Shown one piece after another: positions 8,456-10,853 of a stretch of DNA of 64,000 bases. Every line of letters starts with the position of its first letter. Within the stretch, counting starts at the first letter, position 1. Below the pieces are notes generated by a model that made no database searches, was not told where the DNA came from, and saw only the letters and a list, made by a program, of their open reading frames with translations. Position numbers and translations under genes: made by a program. Origin of the DNA: Cyclobacteriaceae bacterium (GTDB lineage: Bacteria > Bacteroidota > Bacteroidia > Cytophagales > Cyclobacteriaceae); the NCBI GenBank assembly GCA_028285445.1, contig JANQPQ010000044.1:1-64000 (forward strand), given 5' to 3'.

Positions 8456-8830
8456 CTACCTCTTTTTCTTATCCAATTCGTTCAAGAACTCCCTGATCTC
8501 ATCCAGCTCCTTTTTTGAAGATTTACTATTACCCAGTGCTTGAATCACCAAGGATGATGCTGAGCCATCGAAAGCCGAATGTAACAGCTTACTAAGTAGT
8601 TGCTGCTGGGTGCTGGACTTACTAACCGTTGGGCTGTAGATGTGCGTTTTCCCTTCTTTTCGTCTTGCAAGCAAACCCTTTTCTGTCATGATCTGCATGA
8701 GCTTTAGGGTCGTGGTATAGCCCACATGACGGCTTTCAGATAATTTTTCATTTACTGCTCTCACCGTTGATTCACCATCATCCCACAGTACCTGGAGAAT
8801 TTCTAACTCTGAATCTGTTGGTTTCTTCAT
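8456..8830 (-). CDS. BlaI/MecI/CopY-family transcriptional repressor
   Basis: A 124-residue winged-helix repressor of the BlaI/MecI family (Penicillinase_R). The N-terminal winged helix is typical: PTDSELEILQVLW, then STVRAVNEKL and the recognition region HVGYTTTLKLMQIMTEKGLL, followed by the wing RRKEGKTHIYSP. The C-terminal part (about 80-124) is the dimerisation and proteolysis-sensitive region. It is the first gene of a two-gene operon with the M56 sensor. Three TACGAA-N4-TTCGTA-type dyads upstream (8856-8928) overlap its own promoter, so autorepression is very likely. The controlled output may also include the divergent gene at 9014. Confidence 0.93.
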   Translation of the reverse strand: MKKPTDSELEILQVLWDDGESTVRAVNEKLSESRHVGYTTTLKLMQIMTEKGLLARRKEGKTHIYSPTVSKSSTQQQLLSKLLHSAFDGSASSLVIQALGNSKSSKKELDEIREFLNELDKKKR

Positions 8831-8855
8831 AATCTATATTTCTATCATTATTAAT

Positions 8856-8928
8856 TACGAACGAGTTCGTAAATACAAGAATATACGAAGGTTGTCGTAT
8901 ATGCAAATATTTTACGAAGATTTTCGTA
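8856..8928. promoter_or_regulatory. Three BlaI-type operator dyads overlapping the repressor promoter
   Basis: Three dyads share the form TACGAA-N4-TTCGTA: 8856-8871 (TACGAACGAGTTCGTA, part of a perfect 8-base palindrome with 2-base centre at 8855-8872), 8884-8899 (TACGAAGGTTGTCGTA, one arm mismatch) and 8913-8928 (TACGAAGATTTTCGTA). Their centres are 28 and 29 bases apart. On the minus strand a promoter core can be read as TTTG (8907-8904), 20 bases, then TATTCTTG (8883-8876, one mismatch to TAnnTTTG). The middle dyad lies within the 20-base spacer, the first covers the start site and the third lies upstream of -33. Binding by the BlaI-type protein is inferred from position. Confidence 0.8.
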
Positions 8929-9013
8929 GAAAGGCTATATGTGAGGGGAAATTGCCGGTTGTCACATGGTTAACATCAGTTTTATGTAAATTGATAATCA
9001 AAGCATAACAAAA

Positions 9014-9733
9014 ATGAGAATCCTACTGATACTGTTTAGCGTTGGCCTTTCCTCCCATCTTTTTGCTCAGAACTTAACTGCGACCGAGCTACTCAACAAG
9101 TCGATCTCCTATCACGACCCGGATAATAATTGGGTTAAGTTCCATGCTATGTTGAAATTCACCGATGAGCGGCCTGGCCAGAAATCCAGATATTCTGAGG
9201 TTGAGCTAGATAATACCAAAAGCTTCTTCCGACTAAAACAACAGCGAGGTGAAACCACGATTGAACGGGAAGCAATGGTAGAAAATTGCACAAATAAGTT
9301 AAATGGCAGCTTAGAAATAAGCGATGAAGACATGGAGACGCATCGACTTAGCTGTGATCGTACACTAACCTTGCGTAACTATTATTTATATCTCAATGGC
9401 CTTCCGATGAAATTAAAAGATGAAGGCACCATACTTGATCCCGAGGTGAAGAAAACAGAATTCATGGGTAAGTCTTATTTGCAGCTAAAAGTTACTTATG
9501 ATGCTGAGGTTGGCAGCGATACCTGGTACTTCTATATCCATCCTGAAACCTATGCTTTAGAAGGCTACAGATTTTATCATGACGAGTCTATTAACGACGG
9601 AGAGTACATCGTGCTCGAAGACGAAATGGAAGTGCAGGGAATTAAGCTTGCCAAGAAAAGGAAGTGGTATACCAACAAAGAGCAAAAGCATCTGGGCACT
9701 GATGTACTCTCCTCTGTGAAGGCTATGGAATAG
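9014..9733 (+). CDS. Secreted protein, DUF6503-like
   Basis: A 239-residue exported protein with a Sec signal ending SSHLFAQ. The mature part starts with an ATELLNKSISYHDPDNNW segment and continues as alternating beta strands with many Tyr, Glu and Lys residues, reminiscent of lipoprotein-carrier-like (LolA-type) folds and of the Bacteroidota family I recall as DUF6503; that family name is from memory. No catalytic motif is evident. Two cysteines in MVENCTNK and RLSCDRTL could pair. It is transcribed away from the BlaI/BlaR-type pair across a 183-base region holding three operator dyads, so it could belong to the same regulon, although I do not see a clear promoter on its own side. Confidence 0.75.
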   Translation: MRILLILFSVGLSSHLFAQNLTATELLNKSISYHDPDNNWVKFHAMLKFTDERPGQKSRYSEVELDNTKSFFRLKQQRGETTIEREAMVENCTNKLNGSLEISDEDMETHRLSCDRTLTLRNYYLYLNGLPMKLKDEGTILDPEVKKTEFMGKSYLQLKVTYDAEVGSDTWYFYIHPETYALEGYRFYHDESINDGEYIVLEDEMEVQGIKLAKKRKWYTNKEQKHLGTDVLSSVKAME

Positions 9734-9791: not shown

Positions 9792-10853
9792 ATGAAAAGT
9801 ATCAACTATTTGCGCATTATCTCCGTTACCGGCGGCGTGGTATTGGTCTATTCCATTTTACTGTTTTTCTTCTATAGAATTGAACAACCTCACCCGGAGG
9901 CACATATTGAGACTGTCGGAGATGTGATCTGGTGGTCAATAGTTACTATTACAACGGTGGGCTATGGAGACATTGTACCAGTCACTGAGGGTGGCCGGTT
10001 GATTGGCTATATCTTTCTCTTTCTAAGCCTTGGTACTTACGCTTTAATTATTGGACAAATTGCTACTATTATGGATACGCTAAAAGAAAACAGAAAACTT
10101 GGCCAGTTTGGCACCAAATTCAGCAGCCATGTGGTAATCATTGGGTGGACTGAATTTGGAAAAGCCGTTACAGACCAATTGGTAGGCGCTGGAAGAGAAG
10201 TAGCAATTGTTACCAAGGAAAGGAACAATGTCGATCTGATTAGGGAGTTTTACAATACCCGGCAAGTGTTCGTACTGTTCACAGACTATACCAACTTCGA
10301 TCAGTTAACGAAACTGAATATTGAAGACAGCTCCATCGTATTCGTCAATCTTTATGACGACACCGACAAGTTGGTATACATTCTTAATCTGAAGAAACAC
10401 TTTGGTGACTTGAAGTATGTAGTGACCTTGGAAAACGCCAACCTCAAGAGCACTTTTCAAAGTGCTGGAGTTACTTACGCAATCTCCAAGAATGAACTAG
10501 CATCAAAGCTATTGGCTAGCTACATCTTTGAACCCGACGTGGCGAGTTTCAATGAGGAGATTATAGCCTACGCAGATACCGACGAGAAATACGATATGAA
10601 GGAGTATCTCGTATTGGAAAATAACCCCTACGCCAACCAGGAATATGGCCAGGTTTTCTACGACCTGAAAAAGGAGTGCAACGTGATTTTGGTTGGGATG
10701 GTGAAAGTAGAAAATGGCAACCGTACGCTGTTAAAAAATCCTGAGGACTCTCTGGTTGTAGCCGCCGGTGACTATTTGCTAATGATTATGAATAGAAACG
10801 GTGAGAAGAACGTCCGCAAGCGCTTCAAGACCGAAGAAGGTTTAGAGGGTTAA
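9792..10853 (+). CDS. Potassium channel with RCK/TrkA-N domain
   Basis: A 353-residue two-transmembrane potassium channel. The first membrane helix spans about residues 8-28, the pore follows with the selectivity filter T55-V-G-Y-G-D60, and the second helix is about residues 68-92. A cytoplasmic RCK (TrkA-N, Rossmann) domain begins at about 112 (HVVIIGWTEFGKAV, glycine motif at 119-124), followed by a TrkA-C-like segment after about 260. This is the MthK-like layout: the RCK ring gates the pore in response to a ligand such as calcium or a nucleotide. It is separated by 58 bases from the preceding gene. It is distinct from the TrkA/TrkH uptake system at 60149-62940. Confidence 0.93.
   Translation: MKSINYLRIISVTGGVVLVYSILLFFFYRIEQPHPEAHIETVGDVIWWSIVTITTVGYGDIVPVTEGGRLIGYIFLFLSLGTYALIIGQIATIMDTLKENRKLGQFGTKFSSHVVIIGWTEFGKAVTDQLVGAGREVAIVTKERNNVDLIREFYNTRQVFVLFTDYTNFDQLTKLNIEDSSIVFVNLYDDTDKLVYILNLKKHFGDLKYVVTLENANLKSTFQSAGVTYAISKNELASKLLASYIFEPDVASFNEEIIAYADTDEKYDMKEYLVLENNPYANQEYGQVFYDLKKECNVILVGMVKVENGNRTLLKNPEDSLVVAAGDYLLMIMNRNGEKNVRKRFKTEEGLEG

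Follow-up and report, generated by a model that had tools for sequence, protein, structure and literature searches.

Knowledge of BlaI/MecI-type repressors comes mostly from Firmicutes, where they govern resistance to beta-lactams and copper, and from mycobacteria. The closest described systems are compared here on the basis of the available parts of the cited texts. The bla divergon of B. licheniformis combines a BlaI dimer, the operators OP1-OP3 and a co-transcribed blaI-blaR1 pair (PMC3305447), and in S. aureus BlaR1 cuts BlaI at Asn101-Phe102 (PMC9834060). CopY and CopR, which belong to the same family, use two operators per promoter with the 16-base consensus RNYKACANNYGTMRNY (PMC7253601). 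The C. thermocellum repressors BlaI_0696 and BlaI_1845, studied by DAP-seq and EMSA, have regulons of three and one operons (PMC8457756), and a motif is mentioned for mycobacterial BlaI (PMC12565901). For repressors of this type, ordered sets of several dyads and very small regulons centred on the repressor's own operon have been described before. The available parts of PMC12596196 (gut-Bacteroides regulatory network), PMC12578637 (Bacteroidota BAM), PMC12204202 and PMC5613140 contain nothing on the repressor treated here, and no description of TACGAA-N4-TTCGTA as a BlaI-family operator was found in the literature, mostly outside subscription papers.

The locus described here lies in a stretch of 64,000 nucleotides (the window; Table 1). 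Judged from its sequence, it is very probably an autoregulated BlaI-M56 operon with a triple operator-promoter, in which one repressor dimer would bind each dyad and the M56 protease would drive derepression. To judge by the literature searched, three things are new: the TACGA code, its link with a single clade that crosses phyla, and its position within promoters of two types.

Table 1. Coordinates of the features at the locus (window positions) and of dyad sites elsewhere
Feature	Position	Strand	Basis or remark
M56/BlaR1-like membrane metalloprotease, 597 aa	6659..8452	(-)	PF05569, E 1.7e-39; model compared with BlaR1 8exq
BlaI/MecI-family repressor, 124 aa, putative dyad binder	8456..8830	(-)	PF03965 and AlphaFold2 model
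Operator dyad 1 (TACGAACGAGTTCGTA)	8856..8871	.	0 mismatches; over predicted transcription start
Predicted -7 element TATTCTTG	8876..8883	(-)	TAnnTTTG with one mismatch; consensus per available part of PMC7366714
Operator dyad 2 (TACGAAGGTTGTCGTA)	8884..8899	.	1 mismatch; inside -33/-7 spacer
Predicted -33 element TTTG	8904..8907	(-)	Read from sequence; consensus per available part of PMC7366714
Operator dyad 3 (TACGAAGATTTTCGTA)	8913..8928	.	0 mismatches; just 5' of -33 box
DUF6503 protein	9014..9733	(+)	Signal-peptide-like start; divergent from repressor gene
Potassium-channel-like protein	9792..10853	(+)	Ion-channel domain and TrkA-N (PF07885, PF02254)
Permease sites, exact TACGAA-N4-TTCGTA	L228 2036, L229 1992, L260 1989, L261 2035, L267 2078, L269 2032		
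Second multi-dyad site in the own genome	G000:C24:186967-186996 (L001 1487-1516; L232 3968-3997)		Two overlapping dyads
Tandem dyads before PF00144 gene, genome G067	L223 2129-2166		

The repressor and its M56 partner

The repressor was matched to Penicillinase_R (PF03965) with an E-value of 1.2e-27 and 96.9 bits (cut-off 22.6), while its scores with the named CopY, BlaI and MecI models were far below their cut-offs (57.2 against 121.95 for CopY_TcrY and 49.3 against 180 for BlaI_of_BCL), so it is regarded as a family member and not as a named BlaI, MecI or CopY protein. Its AlphaFold2 model has a mean pLDDT of 80.9, lower in the C-terminal helices (52-66), and contains a winged-helix DNA-binding domain and a C-terminal helical dimer domain. 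When the PDB was searched with this model, MecI and BlaI chains took ranks 1-12; the closest match is MecI 1okr (TMq 0.77), and the DNA complexes 1sax, 1xsd and 2d45 are among the top matches (TMq 0.74-0.76). At the level of the model, S. aureus MecI and BlaI (1okr, 1sax, 2d45 and 1xsd; TMq 0.71-0.78) are the best structural matches, with the same winged-helix and dimer layout and the same M56 partner family. No cysteine is present in the translated window repressor, which therefore has no CXC metal site, unlike CopY and CopR with their C-terminal Cys-X-Cys metal motif.

The M56 gene starts 3 bases past the repressor stop, and its product carries a HELAH motif. A sequence-only reading of the locus had called the regulator "BlaI-type", and the name holds because of the PF03965 match and the M56 protease gene that follows. 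The best structural matches of the M56 model are BlaR1 cryo-EM chains (8exq, E 4.3e-7), weak overall (TMq 0.31) because the C-terminal parts of the two proteins differ; in the model, the C-terminal 250 residues of the window protein form an extended coiled coil and a small cap.

Among the relatives of the repressor (see below), the next ORF contains HExxH at 96 of 103 loci; the seven without it are truncated or mis-called frames, and two further loci end at a contig edge. Pfam Peptidase_M56 was matched in all 61 partners scanned. A penicillin-binding (transpeptidase or class D-like) Pfam domain was absent from the window protein and from all of these 61 partners, in contrast to the penicillin-binding sensor of B. 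licheniformis BlaR1 (available part of PMC3305447). A TonB-receptor-like Plug domain was found in 10 of the 61. The C-termini of the partners vary widely (for example at L070, L075 and L078), with Plug domains, long coiled coils and proline-rich tails, and by eye many of them end in 'NGKKQP..h.KY'.

The S. aureus cleavage site (available part of PMC9834060) is aligned to Q97-A98 of the window repressor, and phenylalanine stands at column 98 in none of the 105 repressors compared. Since the Asn-Phe dipeptide is not conserved, M56 cleavage at that place is doubtful. In layout the system looks like the BlaI-BlaR1 switch, although the signal and the cleavage details may well differ here.

Three dyads within a predicted promoter

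With up to two mismatches allowed, TACGAA-N4-TTCGTA has exactly three matches in the 64-kb window. The sequence-only reading had taken these 12 letters as common to all three dyads, which is true of two; the middle dyad has one mismatch, so the core common to all three is TACGA-N6-TCGTA. The motif search reproduced the centre distances of 28 and 29 bases. "Evenly spaced" describes the window locus roughly and fails as a rule, for the centre-to-centre distance ranges from 21 to 57 among relatives, where it seems to follow the promoter elements. At least three matches with up to two mismatches in 64 kb were reached in 23 of 100 shuffles, so it is the clustering of the dyads that is rare and not such matches themselves. 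For the AT-rich intergenic region (8831-9013, 183 nt, 30% G+C), Markov resamples (n=20,000; dyads counted at up to one mismatch) gave no dyad in 19,962 cases, one in 38 and two in none.

The consensus for the Bacteroidota primary sigma factor is TTTG near -33 and TAnnTTTG near -7 (available part of PMC7366714), and the window locus agrees with it except for the single mismatch in the -7 box, with a TTG-to-TA spacing of 20 bases. On the minus strand the order is dyad 3, 5 bases, TTTG, 4 bases, dyad 2, the -7 box, 4 bases, dyad 1 and the repressor gene. The middle dyad had been placed within the 20-base spacer; it indeed fills 16 of the 20 bases and ends exactly where the -7 box starts. The third dyad, 5 bases before TTTG, is upstream as described, and the first, which had been said to cover the start, begins about 4-5 bases past the -7 box and should therefore cover the predicted start site.

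Such an arrangement resembles that of B. licheniformis bla, with three operators between promoter elements and genes and a repressor-protease operon. In our own reading, OP1 with its TTACATATGTAA core even fits the 5-6-5 frame as TATTA-N6-TAAGA. The difference is that the B. licheniformis core is TTACATATGTAA and not TACGAA-N4-TTCGTA, and that the operators serve a divergent beta-lactamase gene (available part of PMC3305447). The dyads of the window might likewise mainly serve the divergent DUF6503 gene or, like the operators of the bla and mec divergons, both genes: the intergenic region is common to both, and 85 bases separate the nearest dyad from the start codon at 9014. We consider this unlikely, because the -33 and -7 elements framed by the dyads point towards the repressor gene, and DUF6503 adjoins none of the other 104 clade members (tblastn), where the dyads persist. 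DUF6503 was rejected as a conserved neighbour on the same count. A promoter of the DUF6503 gene itself seems to lie nearer to that gene.

The operator-in-spacer design recurs in relatives. A dyad with TTG 0-6 bases upstream and TAnnTTTG (up to one mismatch) at its downstream edge was found in 62 of 100 dyad-bearing promoters, whereas shuffled flanks gave 5.1 on average and 11 at most; these flanks were not found in the other 38. The TTG-to-TA spacing of relatives is mostly 18-20. Of the 390 genomes of the order, 86 contain the pattern dyad-TAnnTTTG-dyad, in nearly every case a single time, and none contains the control pattern. Several flavobacterial, Dyadobacter and Pedobacter-like loci have a compressed form, TTCGTACGAA-N4-TTCCTACCTTTG, in which the -7 box takes over part of the half-site. 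Outside Bacteroidota, a TTGAC-like -35 element, a dyad and a -10-like sequence at 17-18 bases were recognized by eye at 13 of 14 loci, L122 being the one where the arrangement is missing, which indicates that the design persists across differing promoter types. A third operator embedded in the spacer is not described for C. thermocellum in the available part of PMC8457756.

Conservation of the dyad in the repressor clade

The clade sample (n=105) consists of the window, 24 loci of related genomes and 80 named loci from genome contigs, whose titles name Bacteroidota, Planctomycetota, Verrucomicrobiales (Verrucomicrobia), Lentisphaerae and Acidobacteria. The 105 repressors group into a single clade with a support of 0.95; they were picked by similarity to the window protein and include near relatives (several Labilibaculum), so the 105 counts are not independent events. 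In an unbiased count of inverted repeats in the 150 nt upstream, TACGA-N6-TCGTA is the top 5-letter dyad (87 of 105), whereas in 10 shuffles the most frequent dyad, whatever its letters, was present in only 3-5 promoters. The dyad lies within 250 nt at 100 of 105 loci and within 400 nt at 103. Three of the five misses at 250 nt are explained by longer leaders (L049, L053 and L083); at two flavobacterial loci (L102 and L118) no dyad was found within 400 nt. The 100 promoters contain one dyad in 15 cases, two in 55 and three in 30. Tandem dyads were counted in 46 of 146 cases (control 0).

These promoters hold 215 sites, selected as TACGA-N6-TCGTA within one mismatch, of which the outer half-sites are fixed and the central bases vary: position 4 is G in all 215 and position 6 is A in 185. 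A TACA/TGTA operator core was not found among them. The sequence-only reading had set the motif apart from the TACA/TGTA type; the letters do differ, and the 16-base frame looks the same as that of characterised BlaI and CopY operators. For example, the centred CopY/CopR consensus has positions Y3-K4-A5 in common with TACGA and differs in the inner positions, KACA versus GAAN (available part of PMC7253601).

The same sites bear on a reading of the dyads as RNA or DNA hairpins (terminator, attenuator) or as a chance repeat, to which we give almost no weight. That reading has in its favour that the dyads are inverted repeats and that the intergenic region is AT-rich. Fixed outer half-sites around a variable centre, however, are the pattern expected of protein contact; dyad 3 lies upstream of the promoter and thus outside its transcript, and none of the 20,000 resamples produced even two dyads.

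Paralogs and the recognition helix

The comparison set consisted of 43 BlaI-family genes that are less closely related and come for the most part from the same genomes (L016, L018, L044-L048, L151-L186). The TACGA dyad was found upstream of none of these 43. AACTA-N6-TAGTT, which has the same 5-6-5 geometry, precedes 24 of the 43 and none of the 105 clade members. That the TACGA dyad precedes 103 of the 105 clade members and no paralog supports its reading as an operator. The paralog AACTA dyads are often paired 20 bases apart, and the motif resembles the GACTAT half-site of C. thermocellum BlaI_1845. Both C. thermocellum half-sites, GTCTAT and GACTAT, are nearer to the paralog AACTA than to TACGA; the likeness to the window lies in the ordered inverted-repeat pairs 5' of the repressor's own operon and in the very small regulons (available part of PMC8457756).

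In the recognition helix, L42, K43, Q46 and M48 (window numbering) are invariant in all 105 repressors, and the paralogs mostly have S42, T43, R46 and L48. The helix of S. aureus BlaI and MecI has R42, T43, T46 and R47, as against L42, K43, Q46 and I47 in the window protein. From the sequences, K43 and Q46 are likely the readers of the changed bases. The "distinct specificity" proposed for this repressor, for which a helix comparison with BlaI had been suggested, is thus supported by both the different paralog motif and the distinct invariant helix.

As autoregulation is inferred from position, a regulator other than the adjacent BlaI-type protein might bind the dyads. This is highly unlikely, since the motif tracks one repressor clade across phyla and the paralogs carry another motif. 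Besides, the repressor is carried by 102 of the 196 genomes in the family (E up to 1e-25), and at least two exact dyads occur in 46 of these 102 carriers and in none of the 94 non-carriers.

A model of the switch

In the autoregulated operon that we favour, a dimer of the 124-residue repressor would occupy each 16-bp dyad (half-site TACGA, 6-bp centre). Given dyads between the -33 and -7 elements, over the start and beside the -33 element, sigma factor and RNA polymerase would be kept off by the bound repressor: occupied spacer and start-site dyads would exclude the polymerase, and dyad 3 upstream would increase cooperativity or prevent contact at -33. An envelope signal is probably perceived by the variable C-terminal part of the co-transcribed M56 protein, which, in analogy to BlaR1, would cleave the repressor so that expression of the operon rises. 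The signal is probably not beta-lactam acylation of a penicillin-binding domain.

A broader reading, which we offer only tentatively and hold to be possible rather than probable, starts from the own operon as the only evident target in most genomes. In it, a BlaI subfamily of at least five phyla would keep one code (TACGA-N6-TCGTA, read by the L42/K43/Q46 helix) and one promoter design, with the operator in the sigma-factor spacer, across promoter types. The M56 protease, with its variable coiled-coil, plug-like or other periplasmic part, would then serve as output as well as sensor, and the whole would be a self-contained, beta-lactam-independent envelope-stress module from which a MacB/FtsX permease borrows the operator in some genera.

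Sequence now suffices to predict a large clade whose operator is different and strongly conserved and whose partners have no penicillin-binding domain. Single genomes can be screened for the operator, the two motifs tell apart paralogous BlaI systems of the same cell, and three helix positions are candidates for a recognition code. With a reporter promoter defined, the role of many M56 proteins of Bacteroidota and Planctomycetota is open to direct experiment.

Extent of the regulon

Most of the sites in carriers are located at the repressor gene itself. Motif searches across genomes, which had been proposed to define the regulon, point mostly to the own operon and in a few genera also to a MacB/FtsX permease; a wide regulon was mostly rejected. 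In the own genome, 15 matches with one mismatch on the forward strand compare with 19 of a control pattern, so single imperfect sites are background. In the first sample, exact sites away from the repressor gene were no commoner in carriers (5 sites in 25 genomes) than in non-carriers (7 in 34), and it is their location that stands out.

Among the matches listed, 15 distant exact sites in carriers and 10 of 26 in non-carriers were examined. Six of the 15 carrier sites are followed after 21-35 bases by the start of a MacB_PCD/FtsX permease, compared with none of the 10 in non-carriers, of which 9 are inside ORFs; the remaining nine carrier sites have no common target. The six genomes (G027, G157, G015, G096, G064 and G097) represent five genera, G027 and G157 being of one genus. 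MacB_PCD genes are abundant, with between 18 and at least 116 matches in a genome; if they are generously put at 4% of genes, the binomial probability of 6 in 15 is 1.5e-5, calculated post hoc. A joint pattern of the dyad and the permease N-terminal motif was found in 6 of 390 genomes, all six being the same carriers (control 0); as it was built from those cases, it confirms specificity and not frequency. On the whole, the circuit acts mainly on itself and has a few further targets in some genera (the MacB/FtsX permeases of six genomes).

A further case is G067, where tandem dyads stand directly 5' of a gene of the PF00144 beta-lactamase family, which may point back to the bla theme. This serine-hydrolase gene was found in that genome and in none of the other four of its genus, so the target is not conserved. 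In G116 and G131, tandem dyads precede an outer-membrane beta-barrel gene.

Apart from the operon promoter, the second site in Table 1 is the one place in the own genome where more than one dyad was seen. A connection of this site with the serine-hydrolase target of G067 was rejected, as BLASTP gave no similarity. The secreted 148-aa protein next to it had no Pfam match (tested as a longer 198-aa frame). The two dyads are 14 bases apart and share TTCGTACGAA; they stand 9 bases before the apparent start of this protein and 164 bases before a divergent MacB/FtsX gene.
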